Positions 2 through 64,000 of a stretch of 64,000 bases of DNA are shown here, one piece after another. Position 1 is the stretch's first letter. Each line of letters opens with the position of its first letter. The position numbers were made by a program, and so were the translations under genes. Source of the stretch: Mesorhizobium sp. ZC-5 (lineage in GTDB: Bacteria > Pseudomonadota > Alphaproteobacteria > Rhizobiales > Rhizobiaceae); NCBI RefSeq assembly GCF_025753855.1, contig NZ_JAOWPT010000001.1:206001-270000 (forward strand), given 5' to 3'. The notes beneath the pieces were generated by a model. The model made no database searches, was not told where the DNA came from, and worked only from the letters and a program-made list of their open reading frames with translations.

Positions 2-235
2 GCGCCCACCTGGACGCTGATCGGGCTTATTCTCGGCAGCCTGCTGGCCAACATAGCGGTGATCGAAACCGTGTTCACCATCCCCGGCCTCGGCCGGCTG
101 CTGATCGATGGCATCTATGCGCGCGACTATCCTGTGGTGCAGGGTTGCATGCTGTTCATCGCTTTCATCTATGTCGTCGTGAACCTGATCGTTGATCTTA
201 TATATCCGCTTCTCGACCCAAGGGTGACGGCATGA
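2..235 (+). CDS. ABC transporter permease, DppB-type (3' part only)
   Basis: The 5' end lies outside the window; about 77 codons remain, in frame from base 2. The visible part has the end of a binding-protein-dependent transport permease: a hydrophobic helix, then residues IETVFTIPGLGRLLIDGI, a further helix, and an ending of the PLLDPRV type. These are signatures of the C-terminus of DppB/OppB/GsiC inner-membrane permeases. Its TGA stop overlaps the ATG of the next permease (ATGA at 232-235), so the two are translationally coupled. A solute-binding-protein gene may lie upstream of the window, or the partner may be the minus-strand binding protein at 5492-7051 (inference). Confidence 0.9.
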   Translation, partial: APTWTLIGLILGSLLANIAVIETVFTIPGLGRLLIDGIYARDYPVVQGCMLFIAFIYVVVNLIVDLIYPLLDPRVTA

Positions 236-1065: not shown

Positions 1066-1069
1066 CACG

Positions 1070-2725: not shown

Positions 2726-2732
2726 GCCGGCA

Positions 2733-3596: not shown

Positions 3597-4330
3597 GGGC
3601 GCTTGGACGCATCATCGAAATCTGGCGCTATCCGGTCAGTTCCATGGGCGGGGAACGCCTGGAGGAATCCCCGCTTGATGCCCGCGGCATCGAACATGAC
3701 CGCATCTGGGGGGTGATCGAGCGCGAAAACGGCGAGGTGGCGGCGCCGGAGAAACGCAAGCATTGGCGTCCGTTGCCGAATCTTTTTTCACGCATGGTGG
3801 CGGCGGAACCTGACGTGGGAAAAGGCGATGGCACCTGGTACCCCGTCTCGTCGCCGCAAGCGCAGGACCTGGCAACCCGCTTTCTCGGATTTCCGGCGGC
3901 ATTGCGTCCTCACACGGCCTACGGAACCGAAAGTGAGGGCAAGGTAGCGCCGCGTTATGAACGGGCCGACATTCACCTTCTGACCACCGCCTCGATGCGC
4001 ATGCTCGCCTCGCTGCTGCCCGACCCCGCCGAGGTCGACCGGCGGCGTTTTCGGCCGAGCATCGTGGTCGACACCGTGCCAGGCCTCGAAGGCTTCGTTG
4101 AGCACGAGATCGTCGGGAAGAAGCTAGCGGTCGGCAACGCAACAATCACGATTTCCGAACCCTGCGCGCGGTGCAGCTTCACGGCACTGGCACAGGGAAA
4201 TCTTTCGTTCGAACCGGCCGTCCTCCACAAGATCTCGCAGCATGGGAAAGGCGGCTTCGGTGTCCTCTGCAAGATCGAAACGCCGGCGGTCATCCGCGTG
4301 GGCGATGCAGTCACCCTTGTCGAGGCGTAA
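3593..4330 (+). CDS. MOSC-domain protein (molybdenum-cofactor sulfurase C-terminal type)
   Basis: 245 residues. An N-terminal beta-barrel region (GRIIEIWRYPVSSMGGE, about residues 5-21) precedes a MOSC domain with RRFRPSIVVDT (about 151-161) and Cys191/Cys194 in EPCARCSF, the position where MOSC proteins such as mARC and YcbX bind or transfer sulfur to the molybdenum cofactor. Such proteins are stand-alone reductases of N-hydroxylated compounds or cofactor carriers. The ATG overlaps the previous stop (ATGA), so it is the last gene of this operon. Its 3' end overlaps the 3' end of the opposing C45-type gene by 20 bases. No ferredoxin domain is fused, so an electron partner would have to be separate. 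Confidence 0.85.
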   Translation: MRALGRIIEIWRYPVSSMGGERLEESPLDARGIEHDRIWGVIERENGEVAAPEKRKHWRPLPNLFSRMVAAEPDVGKGDGTWYPVSSPQAQDLATRFLGFPAALRPHTAYGTESEGKVAPRYERADIHLLTTASMRMLASLLPDPAEVDRRRFRPSIVVDTVPGLEGFVEHEIVGKKLAVGNATITISEPCARCSFTALAQGNLSFEPAVLHKISQHGKGGFGVLCKIETPAVIRVGDAVTLVEA

Positions 4331-5399
4331 GCCGCATCCAGCCTTCAATGGCCGGTGGTCCGGCGCAGACCGAAAGCGATATCGTGTCTCCGATCTCGTA
4401 GACAACTGCGCCAATCGTCATTGATTCCGTGATCGGGTCTTCCAGGCCGGGCACGATGGAAACGGCTCCATCGGCACGGCAAGCCGAAAGTGCGGATTTC
4501 ACGATCTCCGCGTCAACCGCCAGGGCCGCATCTGCAGACAAATCGGCCACGAGACTCGCGAGCCTCCCGCGCGAATTCTCGCTGCCGGAGAGATTGACTC
4601 CGGGGAAGAGGCTGTCCCTGCTCTTGAGCGGGTGGTTCGTGTGAAGAGAACGACCGCTGTCGACATCAAGTTCAACCGCACCACCTGCCGAACACTCCAG
4701 CGTCTTTATCCCGTACCGGTCACCAAGCTGATAATTCTGCCCGGATGCATGCGGCACCCGCCGCAGGAAATCCGCCGCATCGCCGGCATTCGATCTCGCC
4801 AGCGCGCCACGCATGGCGAAGGCGACCGGCAGTCCGGAACGGCTCACCCCAAGTTGCGACAGCGTGTTGACGCAAACGCCGATGCCCTGTCCGTTTAGTC
4901 CCATCAGGCCGATCATGCCGGCCGAGGTGAAAACCAGCGTTTCGTGTCCGTCATCGGCCGCGATCCGTAGCAGGGCTTGTGCGCCATCGTGCCAACGCGG
5001 CAGATCCATCGTCTGCCCGACAAGAGTCGGCCTGCCTCCGGCCGGCGCAATCGCCAGACTGCTGCAATGACCGTCGCCCGTCGATTTGGAAAACCACCAC
5101 TCCTCGTCCATGAGTTGCAATGCATAGGCGGTTTCCTCGGCAATTGTCGCGCCTTCGGCGATGCCCGTGACCTCGTCGAGAAGGTCCGGCGTCAGGCTGG
5201 CGCTCATCGCCCGGAAATTCGTCGCCCCCAGAAAACGCGAGAGAAAAACCGCCGGCGGCTCGCCATAGGCCTCGCCGATCGCCTGGTGCCAGCGCGCGAT
5301 CTTTTCGCCTATGACGATGCGGAGCGCTTCGCCGTGAACGCGGCCGCGCTCCCGGGCACCAGTGGGGCAATCGACAATAGGCATGGAGTCCGTCCGCAT
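4311..5399 (-). CDS. C45-family (acyl-CoA:6-APA acyltransferase-like) Ntn hydrolase
   Basis: 362 residues. The sequence resembles the self-processing C45 family, whose prototype is isopenicillin-N acyltransferase. These are made as a proenzyme and cleave themselves before a Cys, which becomes the N-terminal nucleophile. The likely site is His111-Cys112 in GDGHCSSLAI, followed by LVGQTMD, a strand typical of the family. The frame opens further upstream, but the ATG at 5399 has an excellent AAGGAGGT four bases before it. It is the third gene of a minus-strand operon (hydrolase, binding protein, this gene) and is separated from the binding protein by a terminator-like hairpin. It could hydrolyse or transfer acyl groups on an imported amide; this is inference. 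Confidence 0.82.
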   Translation of the reverse strand: MRTDSMPIVDCPTGARERGRVHGEALRIVIGEKIARWHQAIGEAYGEPPAVFLSRFLGATNFRAMSASLTPDLLDEVTGIAEGATIAEETAYALQLMDEEWWFSKSTGDGHCSSLAIAPAGGRPTLVGQTMDLPRWHDGAQALLRIAADDGHETLVFTSAGMIGLMGLNGQGIGVCVNTLSQLGVSRSGLPVAFAMRGALARSNAGDAADFLRRVPHASGQNYQLGDRYGIKTLECSAGGAVELDVDSGRSLHTNHPLKSRDSLFPGVNLSGSENSRGRLASLVADLSADAALAVDAEIVKSALSACRADGAVSIVPGLEDPITESMTIGAVVYEIGDTISLSVCAGPPAIEGWMRLTPRQG

Positions 5400-5440
5400 G
5401 TGACCTCCTTCAACGGCTATGCGAGCGCTGGGGTTCAACG

Positions 5441-5463
5441 AAAAGGGCGGGAACACCCGCCCT
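5441..5463 (-). terminator. Hairpin with short U-run between binding-protein and C45 genes
   Basis: AGGGCGGG (5444-5451) pairs perfectly with CCCGCCCT (5456-5463) around a 4-base loop. Read on the minus strand it is followed by four T, as in a weak rho-independent terminator. It sits 28 bases after the binding-protein stop and before the C45-type gene, so it probably limits read-through or protects the 3' end of the binding-protein message. Confidence 0.65.
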
Positions 5464-5491
5464 CGCACTGTTCCAATGGAGTGGGCTCTGT

Positions 5492-7051
5492 CTATTTTTT
5501 CTTGACGCCCCAGGCCCGCGTTTTTTCACCGGGCCACACATTGTAGCCTTCAATGTTCGGTCCGACAGCATCGGTGACTGCTTCATAGTAGAGGCCGAGT
5601 ATCGGAACGTCTTGCGCCATCAACGCGTGGATCTGCTTGAACAGGCCCTTGCGCGTCTCGAAGTCGGTCGTCTTCGTCGACTGGAGGTAAAGTTCGTAGG
5701 CCTGGTCGTTTTCCCATTGGCGGGTGGGTGCCTTCTCCTTGTCGCCGATCAGGATGCCATAGGCCTGCGAGGGATCGATGCGCGCCGAGTAGCCGAACGA
5801 CTGCATCTGGAATTTGCCCGCCAGGTAGTTGTCGAGTTGGGCCGCCCAATCCAGCACTTCAAGTTCGGCGTTGATCCCAGCCGCCGCCAGCATTGCCTGC
5901 ACCAGGACCGAATTTTCGTACATGCCCTGATAGCGTGTGTTGGTCTGGATCTTGATCGTCTCCCCTTTGTAGCCGGCTTCAGCCAGCAGTTTCTTGGCTG
6001 CCTCGATGTCGTATTGCGGCCACTTCAGGAAGTCTTCGTCGAAAAAGGCGCTCGCTTGAGCCACGCCCGAAGGATTGAACTCGGACGTGCCGTTGGTGCG
6101 AACCGCCGCGATCTGCTTGAAATCGATGGCATGCGCGATCGCCTGGCGCATCTTCACATTCGACAAAAGCGGATCCTTGGTCTGGATAAGCAGGGGCGTG
6201 AAGGCCAGGCCTGGTATCGACAACACCTTGATGCCGCGGCCCTTTGCCTCCTCGGCACGCTGCGGTTCCAGGTTTGGCAGGACATCGATCTGGCCGGCGA
6301 AAAGGGCCGTCTCAGATGCGGCGGTGTCGGGGATGACGAGGAACTTTACCTCATCGACATAGGCTGTCCGGTCGCCGGTAAGACCGTCCATCTTTTCCTT
6401 GAGTGGCTTGTAGTCCGCGTAGCGTTCCAGCGTGAGATATTGCCCCTTCTGCCATTCCTTCAGCTTGAAGGAACCGCTGCCGATTGCGCTGTCGGCAATC
6501 CATTTTCCGTCCGCACCGACATTCTTGGGGCTGGCGATCCAGCCATTGCACTGGATATTTGCCAGCTGCGCGAGGAATAACGCGTTGGGTTCATTAATCT
6601 TGAAGACGACGGTTCGGTCATCGGGCGCTTCCACCGCCTCAACCTTGAGGCCCTGCGAACCATCGAAAAACGGATTGCAGAACCACGCTTCACCTGCCGC
6701 GACACGGCGGTCCCAGTTCCATTTGACGTCCGACGAAAGCACCGGATCGCCATTGTGGAAGGTCGCTCCTTCGCGCAACTTGAAAGTGTAGGTCTTGCCG
6801 TCTTCCGAGGTTTCCCAGGATTCGGCCAGCACCGGCCCGATCGTCAGGTCGTCGCGGAAGCCGACCAGCGTCTCGAATATGTGGTGCAGGATGGTGTCGG
6901 TGTTCGCGTCACGGTTCAAACCTTCCGTGTCGCGGATATCCGCATTGACGCGGATGTTGAGGGTACCCCCCGACTGCGCCTGTGCTTGGGCGGCAAATCC
7001 GGTCAGCAGTCCTGCCGCCAGTGCCGCCAATATCGTCGATTTCCAGTTCAT
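5492..7051 (-). CDS. ABC transporter substrate-binding protein, family 5 (peptide/opine type)
   Basis: 519 residues. It has a Sec signal peptide (MNWKSTILAALAAGLLTG to AQAQA, cleavage around residue 26), then the SBP_bac_5 layout: GGTLNIR at the mature N-terminus, LAESWETSEDGKTYTFKLREGATFHNGDP, and VKMRQAIAHAIDF in the middle. It binds a solute in the periplasm for a DppBC-type permease. The start at 7051 has GGAGA seven bases upstream; the frame is open to 7078 without support. It lies 36 bases after the hydrolase gene in the same operon. No permease accompanies it on this strand, so the plus-strand permeases and double ATPase at 1-2725 are its probable partners (inference). Confidence 0.93.
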   Translation of the reverse strand: MNWKSTILAALAAGLLTGFAAQAQAQSGGTLNIRVNADIRDTEGLNRDANTDTILHHIFETLVGFRDDLTIGPVLAESWETSEDGKTYTFKLREGATFHNGDPVLSSDVKWNWDRRVAAGEAWFCNPFFDGSQGLKVEAVEAPDDRTVVFKINEPNALFLAQLANIQCNGWIASPKNVGADGKWIADSAIGSGSFKLKEWQKGQYLTLERYADYKPLKEKMDGLTGDRTAYVDEVKFLVIPDTAASETALFAGQIDVLPNLEPQRAEEAKGRGIKVLSIPGLAFTPLLIQTKDPLLSNVKMRQAIAHAIDFKQIAAVRTNGTSEFNPSGVAQASAFFDEDFLKWPQYDIEAAKKLLAEAGYKGETIKIQTNTRYQGMYENSVLVQAMLAAAGINAELEVLDWAAQLDNYLAGKFQMQSFGYSARIDPSQAYGILIGDKEKAPTRQWENDQAYELYLQSTKTTDFETRKGLFKQIHALMAQDVPILGLYYEAVTDAVGPNIEGYNVWPGEKTRAWGVKKK

Positions 7052-7087
7052 GGCTTTCTCCGAGTGTTCCGTCCGCATTTATTTTGG

Positions 7088-7939
7088 TTAAGCGAGCGTG
7101 CGGACAGCGCTCAGCGTTTCCGTGAAGAACTCTTTCACATGTGCGATCAGTTCCCGGTCGTTGTGCGCAACGCCCGGTACCACATCGAGCCGCACCCCTA
7201 TTCCATGCTGCTCGAAACTCTTCTTGAGCGACTGGAGGCGGTCGTTGCGGTCGGCTCCAGCCAGATCGGCGCCGGGCATCCACAAGGCATCGCTGGGCGT
7301 GATGGTAATTTCCCAGGTCTCGTGGTCGTCTCCGCCAATGACCATCTGCACCGGAACTTTGCGTGCGGCATCGAGGTCGATCTTCTTGCCGAAGACGGCT
7401 TCGAAATCGCGCACGCCGACCCAGAAATCATGGTCGAAATCGAGCAGCGTCACGACACCAGGCGCGCCGATCGACGCCGCCATGAGCCGTTCCGGATGGA
7501 GATAGAGAAAACGATGGGTGAAATGGCCGCCGCCGGAAAAGCCGTACATCATCACGCGGTCGCCAGCGATGCGGTAGCGCTCGCGCATCTCGTCGATCAT
7601 GTCGAGCATCACCGCATCGTAGTGCAGGTCTCCGGCGCGCAGCATCTTGTAGGAAGAGAGATCGCCCGGAAAGCAGATGTTGGCCGGAAAGAGCGGACAC
7701 AGGACGATGACGCCGTTTTCTCCGGCGAAATCCGCGAACGCGTCGCGGTAAGCAAGCATGCCGCGCTCAGTGCCATGCACGATCACGGCGAGCGGGTAGG
7801 TCTTGTCTCCGTCTTCCTCATAATCATCCGGAACATAGGCACAATAGGGAAAGCGCTGGTCGAAACGCGAAGCGTAGACCGTGGTGTGTCCGAAATCATA
7901 GTAGGACAGCTTCTGGCCGTGGCCACCGACTTTGCGCAT
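7088..7939 (-). CDS. Alpha/beta-hydrolase fold esterase-like protein (copy 2)
   Basis: 283 residues, homologous along its length to the plus-strand hydrolase at 2733-3596. The nucleophile Ser135 sits in YGFSGGGHF; a PGVAHND segment near the C-terminus offers the catalytic His. It has no signal peptide, so it is cytoplasmic. The ATG at 7939 has GGAGG nine bases upstream and is preferred over the GTG at 7966. First gene of the operon hydrolase, binding protein, C45 hydrolase. Two diverged copies flanking one transporter suggest that imported substrates carry ester or thioester bonds of two kinds, or that one copy has a new specificity (inference). Confidence 0.86.
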   Translation of the reverse strand: MRKVGGHGQKLSYYDFGHTTVYASRFDQRFPYCAYVPDDYEEDGDKTYPLAVIVHGTERGMLAYRDAFADFAGENGVIVLCPLFPANICFPGDLSSYKMLRAGDLHYDAVMLDMIDEMRERYRIAGDRVMMYGFSGGGHFTHRFLYLHPERLMAASIGAPGVVTLLDFDHDFWVGVRDFEAVFGKKIDLDAARKVPVQMVIGGDDHETWEITITPSDALWMPGADLAGADRNDRLQSLKKSFEQHGIGVRLDVVPGVAHNDRELIAHVKEFFTETLSAVRTLA

Positions 7940-8232: not shown

Positions 8233-9249
8233 TTACGCTACTCCGCCCAGGAATGCCTCAAGATTCAGGCCGAGGTCGTCACAGAGGTAACCACCCTCCT
8301 GAACGATCACGCTTGGCAGGCCGAGGGTCGAAATCGCTTCTCCAATGCGGCTGAAGCCATCGGTCGTTACCGACAATCCACCGAAAGGATCGCCCTCGAA
8401 GGCATCGAGGCCGAGCGCCACGACCAGAACGTCGGGCGCAAATGCCTGGATGCGGCGAAGGCCTGCGTTGAGCGCCTCGAGGAACCCCTCATCCCCGGTC
8501 TTGCGCGGCAGTGGCAGGTTGAGGTTGTAGCCGAGCCCGGCGCCCTCGCCGCGCTCGTCGGCATGGCCCCAGAAGAACGGATAGAAGCGAACCGGATCGG
8601 CGTGGATGGAGACGGTCAGCACATCCGGGCGCCTGTAAAAGACGCCTTGCGTGCCGTTGCCATGATGCAGGTCCACATCGAGGATCGCGACGCGGGCAGC
8701 CGATCGGCGCAGATGCTGCGCGGCGACCGCTGAATTGTTGATGAAGCAGAATCCGCCGGCGACATCGTTGAAGGCGTGATGGCCGGGCGGACGGCAGAGT
8801 GCGTAGGCAGCGGCTTCGCCCGACATCACCGCCTCCGTTGCGGCGACCGCGCTCCAGGCGCTCCAGCACGCGCTTTCCCATGTCTCGGCGGAGATCGGGC
8901 ACGACGTATCGGCCATGTGGTAGCCTGCCTGCCCCACCGCCGAGGCCGGATAACTGCCGTCGCGGGCGATCGGGTGGATGTTCGGGATAACCTCCAGCGA
9001 AGCACCCTCTATGCGCCGCCAGCGCTCATAGATGTTCTGCAGAAATTCGAGATATTCCGGCGAGTGCACCGCGGCGACCGGCTTCAAGCCGTAGTCGCGG
9101 GGGCGTTCTATCGTGCAGCCGGCAGCGTTGGCGCCCACAAGAAGCCGCTCGACGCGTTCCGGCTGTTCCGGATTGGGCTGCGGGGCGCCGCTCGACAGGA
9201 AAGCCCTCGGATCGTGACGCTTCTGTTCTTCAGCATAGAAGGCTTTCAC
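8233..9249 (-). CDS. Acetylpolyamine amidohydrolase-like deacetylase (histone-deacetylase superfamily)
   Basis: 338 residues, close to the 341 of bacterial acetylpolyamine amidohydrolase (APAH). Family residues are all present: catalytic His157-His158 in RPPGHHAF, zinc ligands Asp193 and His195 in DVDLHHGNGTQ and Asp282 in LDAFEGDP, and the transition-state Tyr321 in QEGGYLC. These enzymes hydrolyse the amide of N-acetyl-putrescine, -cadaverine or -spermidine in the cytoplasm. The GTG start overlaps the GNAT stop (GTGA) with GGAG seven bases upstream. It is the last gene of a nine-gene operon with an aminotransferase and a beta-keto acid cleavage enzyme, so deacetylation of an imported N-acylated amine is the likely first or second step. 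The exact substrate is not visible. Confidence 0.93.
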   Translation of the reverse strand: MKAFYAEEQKRHDPRAFLSSGAPQPNPEQPERVERLLVGANAAGCTIERPRDYGLKPVAAVHSPEYLEFLQNIYERWRRIEGASLEVIPNIHPIARDGSYPASAVGQAGYHMADTSCPISAETWESACWSAWSAVAATEAVMSGEAAAYALCRPPGHHAFNDVAGGFCFINNSAVAAQHLRRSAARVAILDVDLHHGNGTQGVFYRRPDVLTVSIHADPVRFYPFFWGHADERGEGAGLGYNLNLPLPRKTGDEGFLEALNAGLRRIQAFAPDVLVVALGLDAFEGDPFGGLSVTTDGFSRIGEAISTLGLPSVIVQEGGYLCDDLGLNLEAFLGGVA

Positions 9250-9764
9250 GCGTCGTCTCCGTCATCGCTTGCTAGCGCCAGGAAGGCATCGCCGCGCGCC
9301 GCGAAGATCTTCTCCTCGCGCGACCATTCCATGCCCATACGTTCATAAAAACGCTGTGCCGATGCGTTGGCGGCATCGACCGACAGGCGCAGGTAAACCC
9401 CGCCCCTGTCGCGCGTTTCGGCGGCCAGGCGCCGCAGCAGGCGCTCGCCGACACCCAGGCCGCGGAATGCCGGTTCGACATAGAGGTCCTGGACATAGAC
9501 GCCCGGCCGGCCATACCAGGTGGAAAAGCTCGGAAAGGAGAGGCAAAGACCGGCGAAAACCCCGTCAATTTCGGCGATCAGGACGGCGAAGGCCGGTGTC
9601 TCTCCAAAACCATGGCGCAGGATGTCTGCCGGGGTGCTGGACACCCTGGCAACCTGATCCAGCACTTCGGCGATACCGAGGATCGCCGCGTGGATCGCCA
9701 CTGCGTCGTCCGGGGTCGCGGCGCGGACGATCACCTTGCCCGTCTTGTCCCGGCTGCCTCCCAT
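9246..9764 (-). CDS. GNAT-family N-acetyltransferase
   Basis: 172 residues with the GNAT fold: the acetyl-CoA pyrophosphate-binding motif A in VQDLYVEPAFRGLGVGERLL (about residues 90-109, RGLGVG as the Q/RxxGxG/A loop) and motif B in SAQRFYERMGM. The layout resembles spermidine/spermine-type and small amine acetyltransferases. The ATG abuts the stop of the beta-keto acid cleavage gene with no gap, and the GTG of the deacetylase overlaps its stop, so it is fully embedded in the operon. An acetylase beside a deacetylase is curious: it could act on a different amine or be a detoxifying branch. Confidence 0.9.
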   Translation of the reverse strand: MGGSRDKTGKVIVRAATPDDAVAIHAAILGIAEVLDQVARVSSTPADILRHGFGETPAFAVLIAEIDGVFAGLCLSFPSFSTWYGRPGVYVQDLYVEPAFRGLGVGERLLRRLAAETRDRGGVYLRLSVDAANASAQRFYERMGMEWSREEKIFAARGDAFLALASDDGDDA

Positions 9765-10697
9765 CTAGAACGCCACCCTGTCGCCACCCTTCAACGCAAG
9801 CATCTTACGCGCTTCGGCCGGCGTCGCCACTTCGAGCGAAAGGCCTTCGAGGATGGAGCGAATGCGGGCGACCTGTTCGGCGTTGGATTTCGCCAGTTCG
9901 CCACGGCCGAGATAGAGGCTGTCTTCCAGTCCGACACGCACATTTCCGCCGAACGTCGCCCCCATGGTGATCAAAGGCATCTGGTGGCGGCCGGCCGCTA
10001 GGACGGAGAAGTGGTAGTCGTTGCCGAAAAGCTTGTCGGCGATGCGTTTCATGTGAACAAGATTCTCCGGGTCCGCGCCGATGCCGCCCAGAATACCCAG
10101 CACGAACTGGATGAAAAGCGGCCCCTTGACCAGGCCGCGATCGTGGAAATGCTTCAGCGTGTAGAGATGGCCGACATCGTAGCATTCGAACTCGAAGCGC
10201 GTGCCGCAGCCATCGCCCAACCGTTTCAGTATGTCCTCGATATCGGCGAAGGTGTTCTTGAAAATCGTCGAGCGCGTCGCTTCGAGAAGTTCCGGTTCCC
10301 ACGGGTGCTGCCATTCGACACCAGGTTTCGCCATCGGAAAGATGCCGAAATTCATCGAACCCATATTCAGCGAACACATCTCGGGCTCCGCCCGAAGTGC
10401 TGCCGCCAGACGGTCGTCGAGCGCCATCAGCGACGAGCCGCCGGTCGAAATGTTGATGACCGCGTCACTCGCCTGCTTGATGATCGGCAGGAATGCCATG
10501 AACACCGCCGGATCAGCACTCGGACGGCCATCGGCAGGGTTGCGGGCGTGCAGATGCAGGATCGACGCCCCCGCTTCGGCCGCCGCAATCGCCTGTTCGG
10601 AGATCTGCCGCGGGGTCACCGGCAGGTAGGGGCTCATGGTCGGCGTGTGCACGGATCCGGTGACGGCGCAGGTTATGATGACTTTACTTTTCGACAT
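9765..10697 (-). CDS. Beta-keto acid cleavage enzyme (BKACE, Kce-like)
   Basis: 310 residues of the DUF849/BKACE family, zinc-dependent TIM-barrel enzymes that condense a beta-keto acid with acetyl-CoA and cleave it to acetoacetate plus a new CoA ester; 3-keto-5-aminohexanoate cleavage (Kce) in lysine fermentation is the prototype. Visible family features are the zinc ligands His48 and His50 in ILHLHARN, the substrate-binding NISTGGSS, the SLNMGSMNFG segment and the C-terminal GGNVRVGLEDSLYLGRG. It follows the aminotransferase by 8 bases. In context it would cleave the beta-keto acid formed after removal of an amino group. The substrate of this member is unknown. Confidence 0.95.
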   Translation of the reverse strand: MSKSKVIITCAVTGSVHTPTMSPYLPVTPRQISEQAIAAAEAGASILHLHARNPADGRPSADPAVFMAFLPIIKQASDAVINISTGGSSLMALDDRLAAALRAEPEMCSLNMGSMNFGIFPMAKPGVEWQHPWEPELLEATRSTIFKNTFADIEDILKRLGDGCGTRFEFECYDVGHLYTLKHFHDRGLVKGPLFIQFVLGILGGIGADPENLVHMKRIADKLFGNDYHFSVLAAGRHQMPLITMGATFGGNVRVGLEDSLYLGRGELAKSNAEQVARIRSILEGLSLEVATPAEARKMLALKGGDRVAF

Positions 10698-10705
10698 GTG
10701 CCGCC

Positions 10706-12076
10706 TTAACCGTTGACCGGGAGGTCGAGTTCGCGTGCCAGAACCTCGAAGCAGTCCTCGAGGATGCCGACCAATTCATCGATCTGCTCTCTGGTGATGA
10801 TGAGCGGCGGCGCCAGCATGAAATTGTCGAGTTCAAAGCCATCACCGCGAACCCGCCGCGAATAGATGATCAACCCGCGATCGTAGGCAAGGTTGAGCAG
10901 GCGCTGGTTCGCCGCCTTGGCTTTCGGCAGTGGAGCGAAGGTCTCCGGATCGGCGACCATGTCCGCGCCCAGCAGCAGGCCCTTGCCGCGAACCCCGGCA
11001 ATGAAAGGAAAGCGGCCGGCCAGACGTTCCACTTCGCTTTTCAGCACATCGCCCATCGCCGCAGCATTCTCGACCGCACCGAGACGTTCCAGCTCGTCCA
11101 AAACCGCAAGGCCCGCCGCGCAGGAGAGCGGATTGCCGGCATAGGTGTATCCGTGCTGGAAGCCGCCGGAGTCCAGCACCGGGCCGACCAGCCGCTGCGA
11201 TGCGGCCATGGCGCCGAGGGGCGCATAACCTGAGCCGATACCTTTCGACAAAGTGATGATATCCGGCTTGCAATCCCAGTGATCGCCGCCGAGAAACCTG
11301 CCGGTGCGTCCGATGCCGCTCATCACCTCGTCATGAATGAGCAGAATGCCGTATCTGTCGCATATCTCGCGGATGCGCGGAAAATAGCTGTCCGGTGCCA
11401 CCAGCGCCGCCGTCGCAGCACCACCGACCGGTTCCATGATGAAGGCCAGCACGCTTTCCGGTCCTTCCTCGCGGATTTTCTCCTCCAGCATGTCGGCATA
11501 GCGCAAGCCACGCTCTTCCATCGATAGATTGTCGCGGTCGCGATAGGCCGTTGGCGCGGGCACGGTCGGCATGATCTGTATCTGCGGGGCGAATGTCTCG
11601 GTCAGCGCCAGATCGCCGGTGACGCCCAGCGAGCCCATAGTGCCGCCATGATAGGAAGGGAAGCGCCCGATGATTTTCCAGCGTTTATCCTGCCCGGTCA
11701 CCACGGCCCATTGCCGGGCGAGCTTTAGCGCGGACTCGACTGCTTCCGATCCCCCGGAAACGAAGAAGATGCGGTCGAGGCCGTTCGGCATTTTCGCGGC
11801 CACCCGGCGCGCCAGCTCTTCCGCCGGCTCGTTCTCGAAGTGCAGGCGGTAGGCGAAAGTTGTGCGGTCGAGCTGCCGCTTCATCGCATCGATCACGTTC
11901 CTGTTGCCGTGACCGACATTGACCACCATGGCACCGCTGGATCCGTCGATGAAACGGCGGCCATCCTGCGTGTACATGTAGATGCCCTCGGCCCGATCGA
12001 TCAGCGGCCGGCGCAAGCGCGTCAGATAGAACAGGTTGGATGGCGCCGGTTCGTTCGTGGCGGTCTTATCGATCAC
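10706..12076 (-). CDS. Class III (omega-amino acid type) aminotransferase
   Basis: 456 residues from the GTG at 12076, which has GGAAGGA eight bases upstream. The frame is open to 12211, including an ATG at 12127 that overlaps the previous stop but lacks a Shine-Dalgarno. PLP-dependent fold type I: GGSEAVESALKLAR, the cofactor Asp249 in LIHDEVMSGIGRTG and the Schiff-base Lys278 in ITLSKGIGSGYAPLGA are in place. Members use beta-alanine, GABA, putrescine, taurine or related amines with pyruvate or 2-oxoglutarate. Between the dimethylformamidase-like gene and the beta-keto acid cleavage gene, it probably turns a beta-amino acid or omega-amine into the keto or aldehyde form (inference). Confidence 0.95.
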   Translation of the reverse strand: MIDKTATNEPAPSNLFYLTRLRRPLIDRAEGIYMYTQDGRRFIDGSSGAMVVNVGHGNRNVIDAMKRQLDRTTFAYRLHFENEPAEELARRVAAKMPNGLDRIFFVSGGSEAVESALKLARQWAVVTGQDKRWKIIGRFPSYHGGTMGSLGVTGDLALTETFAPQIQIMPTVPAPTAYRDRDNLSMEERGLRYADMLEEKIREEGPESVLAFIMEPVGGAATAALVAPDSYFPRIREICDRYGILLIHDEVMSGIGRTGRFLGGDHWDCKPDIITLSKGIGSGYAPLGAMAASQRLVGPVLDSGGFQHGYTYAGNPLSCAAGLAVLDELERLGAVENAAAMGDVLKSEVERLAGRFPFIAGVRGKGLLLGADMVADPETFAPLPKAKAANQRLLNLAYDRGLIIYSRRVRGDGFELDNFMLAPPLIITREQIDELVGILEDCFEVLARELDLPVNG

Positions 12077-12123
12077 GGAGTCAGTCCTTCCGATGGCGGA
12101 TTCATGCGTTCGCCTCATGACAT

Positions 12124-13758
12124 TCATTTTTGAAGATAGCGGTCGAGCACATTGGCGGTGACCCGCTCGACCATCGCGTCCTTGCGCAACAGGCCGGCGA
12201 CCCACTCGCAACTGCCGGCGTTGAACACTTCGCCCTTGCCACGCGGGAAATTGACGATCATGCCGGCGCCGCGCTTCACCCGCTCTACCGCCGCCGGGCC
12301 ATCGTCACCGACAAGCGTCTCCGCGACGAATTTGGCATCGGCGTCGGAAAGGAACTGATCGTCGGCCGGGATGTCGGCGCTTTCTTCCTGCAGCGACGAC
12401 ATGCCGAGCGCCAGTATCTGCATGCCCTCGGGAGCAGCACCTTCGCCGGTCGGCTCCGGCAGGCCGCGGCGGATGATGTAGTCGACACCGTCGACCTCGT
12501 AGCCGAAGACATGACCGTCAGCGCCAAGCAGGTCGCCGTAATAGAGGCCGGCCCCGGAAAACGCCCAATGGTCGGGCCGGTAGACCGGAAATCCGCGCAC
12601 GCCGCGCGGGGCGCAGCCGCCCCAGCCGACATAGAGGCCATAGGTTGCGTTGAGCCCGAATGTCTGCGCGCCGGGGCGGCCGACTTCCGGGGCTTCCCAG
12701 GATGTCGAGGTGCGGGTCTTGTCCTGCTGCCGGTACACGGGGTCTTCGGCGCGGGCGCGATATTTGTAGCAGGTCTGGCGGCGGCCCTCGTCCTCCAGCC
12801 TGGTCTGCCACATGAAATTGCCGGCGAAACGAGCGGCGCGGCCGCCGCGCTCGACCCAGTTATCGACCGCGTCGCGCATCTCCCAGGTCCAGTATTCGTC
12901 GTGACCGACGAACACTGCGCAATCATAGCCGTCGAGGATTTCCGGCTCGAAGTGCAATTGGTGCTGGCTGGCCAGGTCGACCTCGTATCCGGCACGCTCT
13001 GCCCAGCGGAAGAAATGGCTATCGTAGCTGGCCCAGCCGGACGAGGCGTATTTGCGCGAATAGCCGTTGGCGAACGCCCATTCCATGTGCGGATAGCGCG
13101 CCGGCGTCGCCGGCGGCACGGTCACCTGCAACGGCACACGCGGCGCGTCTGCCGGCAGCACGACGAAGCCGCGGCAGAACGGTCGCTGCATGCTCACCGT
13201 CGGCGCGTACATGTTGCGGTCGGAACCGGTGATGCCCTGGTAGTGGTTGGAGCCGCCCCAGGTGTTGTAGGCAGACCAGGTGCCCGTCGCCGCCACCTGA
13301 AGGATGCGGCCGGTTTTCCGCCCGGCCTCCGGATAGACGATAAAAAGATGATGGCAATGGATCGGCGCGCCATCGCGCCCCTCCGCCGTCAGCGTGACCC
13401 GATAGGCGCCGGACGGCCAGTCACGCGGTATCGCGAATTCATGGCTGGTCTCCCAGCCGCAACCCTCGACGGAACACTGGTCGGGCGTCTCCTGCCAACG
13501 GGCATCGAGATTGTCCTGCGTCAGTACCTTTTGCTCGGCCGCGCCGTCGCGCACCACATCGAGCCGGTATGTCGGCGCGGTGGACGACACCTGCAGCCGC
13601 ACATATTCCCCAGCCCGGTAGGCGTAACGGTCCGTGTAGCACCAGATCTCGCCACGTGCGCCATCCATGCCCGGCCATTCGTACTTGTTGCCGAGCACCG
13701 CCTCGCGGCGCTGTTCCGCCGTCAGGCCGAAATCCGGATAGGGGCTGTCATAACGCAT
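12124..13758 (-). CDS. N,N-dimethylformamidase large-subunit-like protein
   Basis: 544 residues. The C-terminal region matches the N,N-dimethylformamidase beta-subunit domain, with the diagnostic FVGHDEYWTWEMRD segment; His286 and Glu288 there correspond to the His-x-Glu pair that, as I recall, binds the mononuclear iron of the enzyme. An N-terminal immunoglobulin-like beta region (GEYVRLQVSSTAPTYRLDVVR) precedes a YNTWGGSNHYQG motif. It is shorter than the classical large subunit (about 760) and no small-subunit gene is adjacent. The open frame runs on to 14583 but that part is the ATPase gene in another frame; the ATG at 13758 is two bases after the ATPase stop. It probably hydrolyses an amide of the substrate imported by this operon. 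Confidence 0.85.
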   Translation of the reverse strand: MRYDSPYPDFGLTAEQRREAVLGNKYEWPGMDGARGEIWCYTDRYAYRAGEYVRLQVSSTAPTYRLDVVRDGAAEQKVLTQDNLDARWQETPDQCSVEGCGWETSHEFAIPRDWPSGAYRVTLTAEGRDGAPIHCHHLFIVYPEAGRKTGRILQVAATGTWSAYNTWGGSNHYQGITGSDRNMYAPTVSMQRPFCRGFVVLPADAPRVPLQVTVPPATPARYPHMEWAFANGYSRKYASSGWASYDSHFFRWAERAGYEVDLASQHQLHFEPEILDGYDCAVFVGHDEYWTWEMRDAVDNWVERGGRAARFAGNFMWQTRLEDEGRRQTCYKYRARAEDPVYRQQDKTRTSTSWEAPEVGRPGAQTFGLNATYGLYVGWGGCAPRGVRGFPVYRPDHWAFSGAGLYYGDLLGADGHVFGYEVDGVDYIIRRGLPEPTGEGAAPEGMQILALGMSSLQEESADIPADDQFLSDADAKFVAETLVGDDGPAAVERVKRGAGMIVNFPRGKGEVFNAGSCEWVAGLLRKDAMVERVTANVLDRYLQK

Positions 13759-13760
13759 CG

Positions 13761-14531
13761 TCAGGCTCCGGACGCGGCTGTCAGATATTTGCGCAGGAAC
13801 ACCTTGGTCCGCTCCTGCTTCGGCGCACCGAACATCTCGGTCGGCGTTCCTTCCTCGACCACCACGCCGCCATCCATGAACAGCACGCGGTCGGCAACCT
13901 CGCCCGCAAAACGCATCTCGTGGGTGACGATCAGCATCGTCATGTGCTCGGCTGCCAGCTGTTTCATCACCGCGTTCACTTCGTCGACCAGTTCCGGGTC
14001 GAGCGCCGAAGTCGCCTCGTCGAACAGCATCACCTTGGGCTGCATGGCGAGTGCGCGGGCAATGGCGACCCGCTGTTTCTGGCCACCTGAGAGTTTCGAC
14101 GGAAACGCATCGATCTTTTCGGCAAGCCCGACCTTGCGCAGCAGTTCGGCTGCTTGCGCATGCGCCTCGAGCTTCGGCGTGCCCTTGAGCACGATCGGAC
14201 CCATGGCGATGTTGTCCAGCACCGAAAGATGCGGAAACAGATTGAAGTGCTGGAACACCATGCCCATCTGCTGGCGCACCTGGTTGATATGGCGTTCGAA
14301 TGCCTGCCCGCGCAGCCGCTGGTTCACCTGCACGCCGTCCAGGAATACCTCGCCGGCGTCCAGCGTCTCCAGGTGATTGATGGCACGCAGCAGCGTGCTT
14401 TTGCCCGAACCGCTGGGCCCAATGATGGCGATGATCTGACCGCGATCGACCGTGAGATCGATGCCCTTCAGCACCTCGTTGGCGCCGAACGCCTTGCGGG
14501 CGCCGCGCACTTCGACCATGGGCCCGCTCAT
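13761..14531 (-). CDS. Polar amino acid ABC transporter ATPase (GlnQ/HisP type)
   Basis: 256 residues. Walker [10 protein letters not shown], the Q-loop in [24 protein letters not shown], signature LSGGQKQR and Walker [15 protein letters not shown] are all present; the QHFNLFPHL sequence is typical of amino-acid importers. The frame extends upstream through the permease gene, but the ATG at 14531 overlaps the permease stop (ATGA) and has GGAGA six bases before it. It energises the two permeases encoded just upstream. Confidence 0.97.
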
Positions 14532-15187
14532 CGAGACATCTCCACGCGGCGCTCGACACGGCGCAGGCCGAACTCCAGCACAAGGTTCAGCACATAATAG
14601 AGCGCTGCCGCGACAAGATAGAATTCGAACGGACGGTACGTTTCGCTGATTGCCAGTTGCGCCGCATGCACCAGTTCGGTGATGCCGATGACCGAGACGA
14701 TGGACGATTCCTTGAGCAGCGAGATCATGTTGCCGCCGACTGGCAGCGCCGTGTTGCGGACCGCCTGCGGGACGACGATATAGCGCAGCGTCTGCCAGCG
14801 GCCGAAGCCTATGCTTCGCGCCGCCTCTGCCTGGCCGCTGTCGATTGCCACGATGCCGGCGCGAAAGATGTCGGCGTTGTAGACGGCGAAATGCAGGCCG
14901 AGACCAACGATGCCGGCGGCCAGCGCCGGAATGTCGATGCCGATCTGTACCAGGCCGAAGTAGATCAGGAACAGCTGCAGCAAAAGCGGCGTTCCCATGA
15001 ACAGCCACATGAACAACCGCACCGGGTAAGCAAACACTGTGGGCGCGTAGAGCACCACCAGCGCGAACAGGATGCCGCCGAAAAAGCTCAGCAGCGAAGC
15101 CGAAACGGTGAGCACGACCGTCCACCATACGCCGATCCAGAGGATGTCCGCGTAAGGCAGGACGACGCTGAAATCGAGACCTTGCAC
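14528..15187 (-). CDS. Polar amino acid ABC transporter permease (HisM/GlnP type), second
   Basis: 219 residues with about five membrane helices and the His/Glu/Gln/Arg/opine permease signature: the EAA loop in [40 protein letters not shown] is clear. Start is GTG at 15187 with AGG eight to ten bases upstream. It pairs with the permease at 15204-15851, with which it shares the FGRWQT and PQA patterns, pointing to an old duplication that gives a heterodimeric channel. Gap to the preceding gene is 16 bases. Confidence 0.95.
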
Positions 15188-15203
15188 CTGGCGCCTTCCT
15201 TGC

Positions 15204-15851
15204 TCAGTCTATCGCGTAGCGGCGATCGAGCACATCGACCATCCGCGCCACGCCATAGACCATCACCATGTAAAGCAGCGCGGCGATGCCGAAAATCTCG
15301 AAGGGCCGGTACGTCGAGCCGATGAAGCGTTGCGCCGTGTAGGTCAGTTCGATCACCGAGATGGTCGATACCAGCGCCGTACCCTTGACCAGTGCCACCG
15401 TGTTCACTCCGAGCGGCCGGATCATCAGGCGCGCCGCCTGCGGCAGCACCACGCGCTGCATCGTCTGCCATCTGCCGAACCCGATGCTGCGCGACGCTTC
15501 CGTCTGTCCCCGATCAACCGACAGGATCGCGCCACGCATGCCTTCCGCCATGTAAGCGGCGATGTTCAGTCCGAGCCCGATCACACCGGCGGCGAAGGGT
15601 TCGAGGTTGATGCCGATCTGCGGTCCGCCGAAATACAGGATGAACAGCTGGATCAGGCACGGCGTGCCGCGAAACACGCTGACATAGGCCGCGCCGGCAA
15701 ACCGCAACGCCGCGACATCCGACATCCGGGCCGCTGCAACCAGCGCGGCGACCAGGAGACCGAGCAGAAACGCCAATGCCGAAAGCTGCGCCGTGACCAG
15801 CGCCGCCTCGACAAAGAAAAGGTAGACCCGCTGGACGAGCGAGAAGTCCAT
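15204..15851 (-). CDS. Polar amino acid ABC transporter permease (HisQ/GlnP type), first
   Basis: 215 residues, multi-helix inner-membrane protein with the amino-acid permease signatures VSVFRGTPCLIQLFILYFG and [33 protein letters not shown] (EAA loop). Forms the channel with the following permease. The start at 15851 has only a weak ribosome-binding site, and a 9-bp hairpin lies between this gene and the binding-protein gene upstream, which may lower expression of the permeases relative to the binding protein. Confidence 0.95.
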   Translation of the reverse strand: MDFSLVQRVYLFFVEAALVTAQLSALAFLLGLLVAALVAAARMSDVAALRFAGAAYVSVFRGTPCLIQLFILYFGGPQIGINLEPFAAGVIGLGLNIAAYMAEGMRGAILSVDRGQTEASRSIGFGRWQTMQRVVLPQAARLMIRPLGVNTVALVKGTALVSTISVIELTYTAQRFIGSTYRPFEIFGIAALLYMVMVYGVARMVDVLDRRYAID

Positions 15852-15883
15852 TGGCGAGGACCTTCAGGCGAGAGGAGTGCGGC

Positions 15884-15905
15884 CCGGCCCGCGCGAGCGG
15901 GCCGG
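15884..15905 (-). terminator. Perfect 9-bp hairpin between binding-protein and permease genes
   Basis: CCGGCCCGC (15884-15892) and GCGGGCCGG (15897-15905) pair perfectly around a GCGA loop. There is no U-run, so it is more likely an mRNA-stabilising or attenuating stem at the 3' end of the binding-protein message than a full terminator. Confidence 0.6.
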
Positions 15906-15919
15906 AGACAGCGGAAATG

Positions 15920-16702
15920 CTAGCGGATGTCGCGACCGACCCATTCCATGGCGATCTTCTCGTAGCTTCCGTCGGCCATCATATCGTCGAGGGCTTTCTG
16001 CATGGCCGCCTTGAGTTCCGGATTGTTCTTGCGGATCGCGATGCCGATGGCGACGCTGCCACCCTCGATGCCGGGTGTGTCGAGCTGGCGGATCTTCTCT
16101 CCCGTCTCCTTTACAGCCACCGCAACCGGAATGTTGTCGACCACGATCGCGTCGACACGACCGGCCTTGAGTTCCAGGAAGAGTTCCGGAAGGCCCTTGT
16201 AGGTACGGATTTCCCAACCGCCCTGCGCGCGCGCCCACTTCTCGTGCGTTTCTCCCAACGTGACGCCAAGCGTCTTGCCTTTCAGTTCGTCGAGGGTCTT
16301 CACCGTGGAAGCCTCGCTCACGAAGACGCCGCGGCCGGCATGATAATAGGGGCCGACAAAGTCGACGGCCTTTTCACGCTCCGGGGTGATGGTCATCGAG
16401 CCGACGATGGTGTCGAACTTGTTGGCGAGCAGGCCAGCGATGATGCCGTCCCACGCCGTCGTGACGACGGAGCCCTTGACCCCGATCCGTTCGGCAATGG
16501 CCATGCCTATCGCCGCGTCGAAACCAACCACCTCGTTCTTGTCGTTGACGAAATTGAAGGGCGGATACTGGCCGGTCATGGCGACCTTGATCTCGCCGGC
16601 AGCCTTGATCGTCTCGAGGTCGTCAGCCTGCGCGGGCGCGGCTGCAATTGCCGCGGTGAACATGAATGCGGCGGCCACCAGGCCGGAAAATACGGTTCTC
16701 AT
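15920..16702 (-). CDS. Polar amino acid ABC transporter substrate-binding protein, family 3
   Basis: 260 residues. A Sec signal peptide (MRTVFSGLVAAAFMFTAAIA to AQA, cleavage near residue 23) precedes the SBP_bac_3 domain: IKVAMTGQYPPFNFVN, EVVGFDAAIGMAIAERIG, WDGIIAGLLANKFDTIVGSMTITPERE and a KTLGVTLG lobe. It captures a small amino-acid-like ligand in the periplasm. The ATG at 16702 has AGAGGA eight bases upstream; an in-frame ATG at 16711 is the alternative. First gene of the nine-gene operon, divergent from the LysR gene. The SBP_bac_3 class suggests a polar amino acid, opine or small N-acylated amine as substrate. Confidence 0.95.
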   Translation of the reverse strand: MRTVFSGLVAAAFMFTAAIAAAPAQADDLETIKAAGEIKVAMTGQYPPFNFVNDKNEVVGFDAAIGMAIAERIGVKGSVVTTAWDGIIAGLLANKFDTIVGSMTITPEREKAVDFVGPYYHAGRGVFVSEASTVKTLDELKGKTLGVTLGETHEKWARAQGGWEIRTYKGLPELFLELKAGRVDAIVVDNIPVAVAVKETGEKIRQLDTPGIEGGSVAIGIAIRKNNPELKAAMQKALDDMMADGSYEKIAMEWVGRDIR

Positions 16703-16810
16703 CTCGTTCATCCTCTGGGTCCGCGAGTGGCGGAACTGTCTGCGTTTGCAGTTATGTTTGCGACGCATCGCGAGCGCTGCGACGGATGATTGCCTTTGAC
16801 GGTGCATTGC

Positions 16811-16835
16811 GCAAATAGATATTGAAAATGTTTGC
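16811..16835. promoter_or_regulatory. Candidate LysR operator
   Basis: GCAAATA (16811-16817) and TGTTTGC (16829-16835) form an inverted repeat with 6 of 7 matching positions and an 11-base spacer; T16816 and A16828 fit the T-N11-A rule for LysR boxes. It ends 14 bases before the LysR start, in the divergent interval with the transporter operon, so it is placed for autoregulation and control of the operon. Confidence 0.5.
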
Positions 16836-16849
16836 CATGGATTTTGGAA

Positions 16850-17827
16850 ATGAAGACGCCCCGATTTGATCGCCTCGTCTGGGATCTCGACTGGAACCTG
16901 CTGCGGACCTTTTCGGTGATTGTCGAGGAGAAGAGCATCACGCGCGCGGCCGAGCGGCTGACGCTGAAGCAGCCAAGCGTGAGCAATGCGCTGAAACGGC
17001 TCGAAACACGCATCGGGCGCCGGCTCATCGAACGCGACGCAAATCGTTTCGAACTGACCGATGTGGGCCGCCTTCTCTACGAGGAAAGCCTCGATGTGTT
17101 CGGCACCATCTCGCGGCTGCAGGTTCTGGTGCGTGATGTGCGCGAGGAAGTAACCGGGCATGTGGTGATCTGCGTCGCCAGCCATGTAGTGTCGCCGTTG
17201 TTCGACCGCGCCCTGGCGGAATTTCACCGCGAGCACCCCCGCGCAACGCTCACGATATCCGTCCTGCCGAGCGTGGAGGTGGCCAAGCTGGTGCGGGAGA
17301 GACGCGCCTCGTTCGGCATCTGCCTTGTCAGCCAGCGCGATGCCGCGCTCGAATATGCCGTCGTCTACCGTGAGTTTTTCGGCTTCTTCTGCGGCCCGAG
17401 TCACAGGCTGTACGGGCTTTCCGGCCTGACATTTGGGGATCTGGAAGGCGAAACATCGGTGTCGTTCCAGACCGACCACATCTCGGATGCGCTGCGCCCG
17501 GTGGCGCTGCTGCGCGGCGAAGCAAAGCTCGAGGCAAATGTCATCGGCATCTCTTCGAGTCTCGAAGAGGTCCGGCGGATGATCGTTGCCGGATTGGGGA
17601 TCGGCCCGTTGCCGCTGCATGTGGCCCGGCGCGACGTCGAGGATAGGTTGCTCTGGCGGCTTCCTCCCTACGAAAATCCGCCGGCCATCGACATCTTCCT
17701 GCTGACCAACCCGAAGAAGGTCTTGAACCGGGCGGAAAAAGCGCTGCTCGCTCTCCTGAACGGGCTGGTTTCCTCGACCCCGCTACAGGACCGAACCTAT
17801 GGCGGCGGAAGCCATTCCGGGCGCTGA
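16850..17827 (+). CDS. LysR-family transcriptional regulator
   Basis: 325 residues. The winged helix-turn-helix spans about residues 12-65 (LRTFSVIVEEKSITRAAERL, then QPSVSNALKRLE with the typical second helix), followed by a LysR-substrate co-inducer domain. The frame also offers TTG at 16832, but the ATG at 16850 gives the usual short arm before the first helix. Divergent from the nine-gene amine-type operon with 147 bases between starts and a T-N11-A palindrome in the gap, so it is the probable activator of that operon, responding to the imported compound or an intermediate (inference). Confidence 0.93.
   Translation: MKTPRFDRLVWDLDWNLLRTFSVIVEEKSITRAAERLTLKQPSVSNALKRLETRIGRRLIERDANRFELTDVGRLLYEESLDVFGTISRLQVLVRDVREEVTGHVVICVASHVVSPLFDRALAEFHREHPRATLTISVLPSVEVAKLVRERRASFGICLVSQRDAALEYAVVYREFFGFFCGPSHRLYGLSGLTFGDLEGETSVSFQTDHISDALRPVALLRGEAKLEANVIGISSSLEEVRRMIVAGLGIGPLPLHVARRDVEDRLLWRLPPYENPPAIDIFLLTNPKKVLNRAEKALLALLNGLVSSTPLQDRTYGGGSHSGR

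Positions 17828-61146: not shown

Positions 61147-61223
<77 letters not shown>

Positions 61224-61539: not shown

Positions 61540-64000
<2,461 letters not shown>

Follow-up and report, generated by a model that had tools for sequence, protein, structure and literature searches.

Work of the Barker laboratory from 1979-1981 reportedly traced the degradation of L-beta-lysine in a Pseudomonas through N6-acetylation, a transamination that gives 3-keto-6-acetamidohexanoate, cleavage of this acid with acetyl-CoA into acetoacetate and 4-acetamidobutyryl-CoA, and the action of a deacetylase-thiolesterase that yields 4-aminobutyrate (GABA). We know of no sequence for either N6-acetyl-beta-lysine transaminase (EC 2.6.1.65) or 4-acetamidobutyryl-CoA deacetylase (EC 3.5.1.51). 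Analysis of a 64,000-nucleotide stretch of Mesorhizobium sp. ZC-5 (contig NZ_JAOWPT010000001.1, positions 206,001 to 270,000; hereafter the window) revealed a nine-gene operon in which genes for an acetyltransferase, a transaminase, a beta-keto acid cleavage enzyme (BKACE) and a deacetylase stand together, with one candidate gene for each step of that route; a dedicated importer and a putative amidase are additional to it. In the portions of the literature available to us no paper was found that joins these genes to beta-lysine catabolism, or that treats the pathway intermediates or both EC numbers. An earlier note on this DNA had called the pathway undescribed, which is too strong if the Barker route is as described above; to our knowledge the chemistry is known but has had no genes, and here it would be joined to an importer and amidase entry.

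The kamA operon of Bacillus subtilis resembles the window operon in that a class III aminotransferase (AT), an acetyltransferase, a deacylase and beta-keto-acid processing occur together, but it differs in that KamA is present, a CoA-transferase takes the place of BKACE, an M20 enzyme that of the histone deacetylase (HDAC)-fold enzyme and AblB that of the GNAT acetyltransferase, and no amidase or importer is annotated in the stretch. The window for its part has no KamA, an AT below the NF005375 cut-off and no AblB match. In the carnitine pathway BKACE is likewise found with a thioesterase, and the thioesterase of one related locus (L057; loci and genomes are numbered L and G) matches the tail of carnitine 3-dehydrogenase with 103 bits; carnitine-type degradation was set aside because the window has no dehydrogenase and carries a transaminase, with the proposed acetyl protection, instead. 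The dimethylformamidase (DMFase) of Paracoccus (6lvb) shares with the dimethylformamidase-like protein of the window (DMF) the C-terminal family and most active-site residues, but its large subunit has 775 aa against 544 aa, its small subunit is absent here and one of its two tyrosine iron ligands was left unplaced. Acetylpolyamine amidohydrolase has the Hist_deacetyl domain and the zinc ligands in common with the window deacetylase but not the acidic Glu106.

Organization of the operon and proposed pathway

All nine genes are on the minus strand, the first beginning at 16702 (or 16711) and the last ending at 8233; a LysR regulator is divergently transcribed from the plus strand (16832..17827), and every family name was confirmed by Pfam across these ten genes. 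The first four code for a polar-amino-acid ABC importer, consisting of a family-3 periplasmic binding protein (15920..16702, alternative start 16711; SBP_bac_3), two permeases (15204..15851 and 14528..15187; both BPD_transp_1) and an ATPase (13761..14531; ABC_tran). These are followed by DMF, the proposed entry amidase (12124..13758, 544 aa; DMFA2_C, 237 bits, cut-off 27), by the class III AT (10706..12127; Aminotran_3, pyridoxal phosphate lysine K295 predicted from its motif), the proposed N6-acetyl-beta-lysine transaminase, which was also placed in trees and in a context survey, and by BKACE (9765..10697; PF05853, 361 bits, cut-off 24.8), which would cleave 3-oxo-6-acetamidohexanoate with acetyl-CoA. 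The last two genes code for a GNAT acetyltransferase (9246..9764; Acetyltransf_1), the putative beta-lysine N6-acetyltransferase, and for an HDAC-fold deacetylase with a GTG start (8233..9249; Hist_deacetyl), a candidate 4-acetamidobutyryl-CoA or 4-acetamidobutyrate deacetylase. The computed masses are 36.3 kDa for the deacetylase and 51.8 kDa for the AT. Alignments and motif positions indicated that the predicted proteins contain the catalytic residues expected for the enzyme families.

The binding protein gene is separated from the first permease gene by 68 nt, and from the second gene onward all neighbours overlap by 4 nt or are at most 16 nt apart: 16 nt between the permeases, a 4-nt overlap between permease and ATPase, 2 nt between ATPase and amidase, a 4-nt overlap between amidase and AT (with the AT start assumed at 12127), 8 nt between AT and BKACE, 0 between BKACE and GNAT, and a 4-nt overlap between GNAT and deacetylase. 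In a simple scan there was 1 promoter-like site, where chance would give 2.1, and the terminator-like sites numbered 10, where chance would give 7.0 (sd 3.1).

From the gene content, its conservation, the enzyme replacements and the residue conservation observed, we infer the following reactions and substrate. The operon is probably a pathway for uptake and degradation of beta-lysine, or of a beta-lysine conjugate, by way of acetyl protection; acetyl-protected catabolism of a beta-diamino acid, namely beta-lysine, is the most likely reading. The ABC importer would take up the compound and DMF would open an amide bond in it, after which GNAT would acetylate the terminal (N6) amino group of beta-lysine and the AT would remove the 3-amino group to give 3-oxo-6-acetamidohexanoate. 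The acetyl group would be needed because the 3-oxo acid without it would cyclise to a pyrroline, and in arginine biosynthesis an acetyl group likewise prevents cyclisation. BKACE would then use acetyl-CoA to cleave 3-oxo-6-acetamidohexanoate, releasing acetoacetate and 4-acetamidobutyryl-CoA. Deacetylation would fall to the HDAC-fold enzyme, and opening of the thioester either to this protein as well or to a thioesterase, for example one of the 4HBT type that many relatives have alongside. The predicted end products, GABA, acetate and acetoacetate, are ordinary carbon sources. A thioesterase as a required part of the pathway was dropped, as one lies near the amidase in just 39 of 72 loci.

Conservation of the amidase-anchored loci

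With DMF as query, 357 relatives were obtained from a genome collection and the 80 best loci retained; downstream partners were counted in the 76 loci with more than 4.5 kb downstream, and the importer and LysR in the 72 loci with flanks on both sides. Partner counts at these loci and at those anchored on the AT were taken from direct tblastn tables. The AT was found in 75/76 loci, GNAT in 74/76, the HDAC deacetylase in 74/76, BKACE in 58/76 and all four together in 54/76, while a complete importer was present in 40/72 and LysR in 43/72. Among the 72 flanked loci, 39 had both importer and BKACE, one an importer without BKACE, 16 BKACE without importer and 16 neither. By record title the loci were mostly from Mesorhizobium, with Ensifer, Brucella/Ochrobactrum, Nitratireductor and others, and being mostly Mesorhizobium they are not independent of each other. 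The conservation counts at the 76 loci indicate more than chance adjacency of the operon genes. DMF itself is sparse: counting the window's own genome, it was found in 20/151 relatives at E <= 1e-20 and, at E <= 1e-30, in 16/385 genomes of the class and 14/398 of the phylum.

The nine-gene run with its divergent LysR is thus real and the same set recurs in other genomes. A single catabolic operon, as the earlier note had proposed, agrees with a gene set that is kept together elsewhere, and the loss of conservation that the note had named as refuting it did not occur; the order it gave, in which import and amide hydrolysis precede transamination to a beta-keto acid and cleavage of that acid with acetyl-CoA, is sound.

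Genomic context of the aminotransferase

Of 385 genomes of the class searched with the AT, 26 matched at E <= 1e-130, and the surroundings of 24 of the 25 matches outside the window's own genome were inspected. Nineteen loci from 11 genera carried an AT of at least 56% identity; BKACE was near it in 15 of them, CoA-transferase A/B in three, both in none, and neither in one (L337). An HDAC or M20 deacylase accompanied 14 of the 19, an acetyltransferase eight and DMF four. None of the five loci inspected (of six) with an AT of 51-52% identity had any partner.

Analysis of the loci devoid of DMF revealed that 14 of 15 pair the AT with BKACE or a CoA-transferase, and that 13 of these 14 also carry a deacylase, which indicates that the deacetylase belongs with transamination and cleavage; the remaining locus, L342, runs to the contig end. 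The gene orders fell into four builds, importer-DMF-AT-BKACE(-GNAT-HDAC), Pot-type importer-AT-BKACE(-GNAT)-HDAC-FAD oxidoreductase, AT-BKACE-GNAT-M20 (L333-L335, one genus) and AT(-GNAT)-CoA-transferase-M20(-thiolase). In a first phylogenetic tree the 22 chosen operon ATs, including that of the CoA-transferase type from Rhodobacteraceae strain M382, formed one clade with support of 100/99. In a second tree, which omitted eight rows of the first and added three, the operon-AT group was kept at 92/99 and occurred in 93% of the bootstrap trees.

Replacement of pathway steps by unrelated enzymes

BKACE converts a beta-keto acid and acetyl-CoA to acetoacetate and an acyl-CoA, and a CoA-transferase together with a thiolase arrives at similar products. 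Acyl groups on amines are removed by HDAC enzymes as well as by M20 enzymes. Both replacements were found among the relatives, BKACE being replaced by CoA-transferase and thiolase and the HDAC-fold deacetylase by an M20 deacylase. The plasmid records of strain M382 (L300) and Alisedimentitalea (L363), near-copies of each other, carry an importer and an AT of 60% identity followed by CoA-transferase A/B, an ArgE/DapE (M20) deacylase, a thiolase, another amidohydrolase and an alanine-racemase-like gene. They resemble the window in importer type, LysR and AT but differ from it in the CoA-transferase and thiolase, the M20 enzyme, the M20D amidohydrolase and the alanine-racemase-like gene, with no GNAT annotated. 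Parasedimentitalea combines importer, LysR, AT, BKACE and HDAC with the M382-like amidohydrolase and alanine-racemase-like gene. In the Microvirga loci L057 and L059, AT, BKACE, a 4HBT-type thioesterase and an M20 deacylase adjoin DMF and GNAT, and L057 also has an importer. Genome G040 has a DMF locus without nearby BKACE or HDAC and a second locus (L222) with Pot-type importer, AT, BKACE and HDAC. Ectoine-type degradation was considered in view of an EhuA-like ATPase score and of DoeB2-like amidohydrolases in L288 and L300, and was rejected with scores below the cut-offs.

The transaminase step can also be filled by a distant enzyme. Sinorhizobium medicae (L367) carries an amino-acid ABC importer, a DMF of 65.7% identity, a LysR of 50%, CoA-transferase A/B, M20, thiolase and a GNAT of 40%, and its AT has 27% identity to that of the window. 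The best solved relatives of this AT are the beta-transaminase 2yku (1.6e-129) and the beta-phenylalanine aminotransferase 4ao9 (4.6e-122), so that a beta-amino acid suits the transaminase step, in keeping with what BKACE requires. The rhizobial records L366-L368 all carry CoA-transferase A/B, M20, thiolase, GNAT and a class III AT, and no aminomutase is annotated in the stretch shown. The M20 proteins of L057 (500.3), L300 (622.6), L365 (617.8) and L299 (379.2) pass the NF005306 model, whose cut-off is 376.

Other loci with related genes were also encountered. On pSymA of Sinorhizobium meliloti (L364) an M20 deacylase is accompanied by broken remains of CoA-transferase, thiolase and GNAT, so that the pathway seems to have decayed there. 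A Roseomonas marmotae plasmid (L301) carries in a row an AT of 50% identity, a binding protein, a 726-aa dimethylformamidase-like protein, a hydrolase and GNAT, possibly a cousin pathway. On a Sinorhizobium terangae plasmid (L303), surrounded by transposases, an AT of 48% and an M20 aminoacylase lie near a thioesterase and a BKACE of 56%. Loci L281, L290 and L291 contain two HDAC-fold deacetylases, a class III AT and ABC importer genes, with no BKACE match in the stretch.

Residues of BKACE and of the deacetylase

Alignment of BKACE with BKACE15 (8rio, 404.8 bits) placed E171, the catalytic glutamate, against E171 of that enzyme. BKACE15 is described as acting on neutral C5-C6 beta-keto acids (PMC11961710), a preference that fits the acetylated, neutral side chain proposed here. 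BKACE also scored 528.3 against the model NF053538 (3,5-dioxohexanoate type, cut-off 430), a family name and not a proof of substrate.

Alignment of the deacetylase to 3men and 3q9b gave the predicted zinc ligands D193, H195 and D282, with H157/H158, Y321 and the subfamily residue R221; the roles of these residues are those of their counterparts in the HDAC family. R221 was found in 90/91 operon-type rows against 2/33 of the others, a count inflated by near-copies, and it lies in a loop presumed to flank the active site, where it would favour a substrate with negative charge. Glu106, the polyamine-binding residue of the Mycoplana (M. ramosa) enzyme (PMC11532494), is not kept, the window having V105 and 89/91 operon-type rows a valine.

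These residues bear on acetylpolyamine catabolism, in which the deacetylase would free an acetylated polyamine for conversion to an aminoaldehyde by the AT. The deacetylase is indeed nearest to enzymes named acetylpolyamine amino/amidohydrolase, and several relatives use a PotD-like binding protein, although the PotD model scores 46 bits, far under its cut-off of 582. A polyamine route, however, needs neither BKACE nor CoA-transferase and thiolase, and the missing Glu106 also speaks against it, though a Pseudomonas polyamine enzyme likewise has none (PMC11532494). On the presence of BKACE or CoA-transferase and the missing Glu106, acetylpolyamine degradation was set aside as very improbable.

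The proposed entry step

Y164, H286, E288, N314 and probably E421 of DMF correspond to Y399, H519, E521, N547 and E657 of DMFase (6lvd/6lvb, 114 relatives), and no clear counterpart of Y440 was placed. The active site of DMFase has two tyrosines and one glutamate as iron ligands, together with His519, Asn547 and Glu657 (PMC7686228). An AlphaFold2 model of DMF built from 26 sequences had a mean predicted local distance difference test (pLDDT) score of 55.6, too poor to place the iron site. No small-subunit gene lies beside DMF, as all nine genes in 8233-16711 belong to other families.

R109, T152 and D189 of the binding protein have identical counterparts in AncQR, which binds amino acids, and since these are kept the imported compound probably carries an amino-acid end. 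An importer of amino-acid type accompanies DMF in 40/72 loci, in L148-L151 and in L367, and M382 has an M20D amidohydrolase instead of DMF; on these grounds DMF is likely an entry amidase outside the pathway core. A further proposal, tentative and on balance doubtful, is that with the amidase-led version soil and symbiotic bacteria feed on amide-bound beta-lysine from other microbes (beta-lysyl-lysine from EF-P turnover or beta-lysine-containing antibiotics), in which case DMF would represent a novel type of amidase, dependent on iron and acting on amides of beta-amino acids.

Aminomutase neighbours and the probable assignment of beta-lysine

The Bacillus subtilis operon was found in a 35-kb linear record labelled plasmid (L299), in the order AT, CoA-transferase A and B, M20 'peptidase', AblB and KamA, the KamA gene being broken in this record. 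Its AT is presumably YodT. AblB scored 339.3 against TIGR03827 (putative beta-lysine N-acetyltransferase; cut-off 205.1 bits). B. subtilis KamA is reported to convert lysine to L-beta-lysine in vitro, and YodT is listed with unknown function (PMC6522883). Rhizobium sp. C104 (L365) carries a gene resembling lysine-2,3-aminomutase, followed after 435 nt by CoA-transferase A/B, M20, thiolase and GNAT; the aminomutase scored 555.9 against TIGR03822 (cut-off 396.25) and 266.4 against TIGR00238 (cut-off 199.2), and the GNAT is 41.6% identical to that of the window over 154 aa.

A search of the window's genome for the KamA family (TIGR00238) gave no match, as expected if beta-lysine is imported. Among the genomes with operon-type ATs, 7/24 had some KamA-family match, three of them over the cut-off and none on the contig of the operon; three of the four weaker matches were in genomes of the AT-BKACE-GNAT-M20 build, which has no importer beside the operon. 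We read these data as suggesting that the Bacillus and C104 loci make beta-lysine and that the window operon imports it. Separately, genome G229 (L354) has a KamA-family gene next to one whose sequence resembles EpmA, and this points to beta-lysylation of EF-P in a member of the Alphaproteobacteria.

Evidence weighing against the assignment and alternative substrates

Several observations weigh against the beta-lysine pathway proposed here, beginning with the acetyl group. Only eight of the 19 loci of the AT survey have an acetyltransferase nearby; nine AT-BKACE-HDAC loci (L222, L268, L280, L288, L336, L338, L344, L346 and L347) and the M382-type operons are without one, and acetyl protection there would need a distant gene or an imported acetylated compound. 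That the compound is already acetylated on import at the AT-BKACE-HDAC loci may be so, and is a guess. Loci L148-L151 carry importer, amidase, AT and BKACE with no GNAT or deacylase within 9 kb; of the genomes of this type, G207 has an HDAC of 70% elsewhere and G183, G311 and G409 have just 44-45% ones. L337 has AT and HDAC without a cleavage partner. At the amidase-anchored loci a nearby BKACE is absent in 18/76, and the 12 BKACE-less genomes searched hold only BKACE relatives of 54-67%. The operon-type HDACs were clustered but did not form one clean clade (5 changes, shuffled mean 19.3) in a tree built from 12 randomly drawn amidase-type rows and all other rows, and a search of the window's genome for a thioesterase of the L048 type gave no match at E <= 1e-10.

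The nine AT-BKACE-HDAC loci without an acetyltransferase also speak for a substrate with two amides, or with a formyl and an acetyl group, which the earlier note had suggested from the presence of two unrelated amide hydrolases in one operon: both would cut it, the resulting beta-amino acid would be transaminated and cleaved, and GNAT would be incidental. GNAT, however, occurs in 74/76 amidase loci, and a relative of it lies beside the deacylase in the CoA-transferase-type loci L365-L368. The two-amide substrate leaves the acetyltransferase unexplained; moreover the amidase lies outside the common core, being present in 4/19 loci of the AT clade. We hold such a substrate to be quite improbable; of the earlier proposal the single catabolic pathway is supported, by the conservation of the gene set, and the two-amide suggestion is not. 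Acetyltransferase and deacetylase read better as a protect/deprotect pair, even with an acetyltransferase nearby in only eight of the 19 loci.

For the substrate itself the assignment depends on aminomutase genes that accompany such partners at two other loci. The model TIGR03822 has the status of a hypothetical equivalog, and the aminomutase of L365 may act on another amino acid; within that stretch no AT homolog was found beside it. The window AT scored 421.8 against NF005375, below the cut-off of 535, and the Bacillus AT 786.4. The first tree grouped the Bacillus AT with the operon ATs in a clade of 29 rows, but the second placed it among other class III enzymes, after which its position as sister of the operon ATs was dropped. 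A paralog in the window's own genome (41%) is nearer to the window AT than the Bacillus AT is (38%). The window GNAT gave no match to TIGR03827 and no BLAST match to Bacillus AblB at 1e-4.

The same chemistry could act on another beta-amino acid with a second amino group, such as beta-ornithine, a beta-arginine-derived compound or one of 3,5-diaminohexanoate type. The refilled steps point to a type of chemistry and not to a chain length, and models of arginine- and glutamate-2,3-aminomutase match the L365 aminomutase, below their cut-offs. On the other side, the KamA gene that ends the Bacillus operon of the same logic codes for an enzyme that makes L-beta-lysine in vitro (PMC6522883), and AblB is named for beta-lysine. 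We regard another substrate of this kind as unlikely and retain beta-lysine as the probable one.

Neighbouring features of the window

A separate cluster adjoins the operon at 232-7939, in which sequence reading assigned a dipeptide-type ABC permease and ATPase and a family-5-type binding protein (5492-7078, minus strand). It also contains two similar alpha/beta hydrolases (2745-3596, plus strand, and 7088-7939, minus strand) and a C45 autoproteolytic acyltransferase (4311-5399, minus strand; NF040521, 161.5 over 85 bits), and looks like a cluster for uptake and hydrolysis of another acylated compound. At the far end of the window (62001-64000), just beyond a tRNA-Met gene (61147-61223), the G+C content drops to 0.53 from about 0.58-0.65 elsewhere.

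Significance of the operon

If the proposed pathway is correct, the operon would provide genes for a pathway known just from decades-old enzymology, and YodT of Bacillus subtilis, with the other proteins of its operon, would gain suggested functions. A defined catabolic route would be available for a BKACE and for an HDAC-fold deacetylase, a route which would employ a catabolic acetyl protecting group and whose cleavage, deacetylation and transamination steps would have been refilled by unrelated or distant enzymes. The dimethylformamidase-like family would gain a biological role, as opposed to one in solvent degradation.

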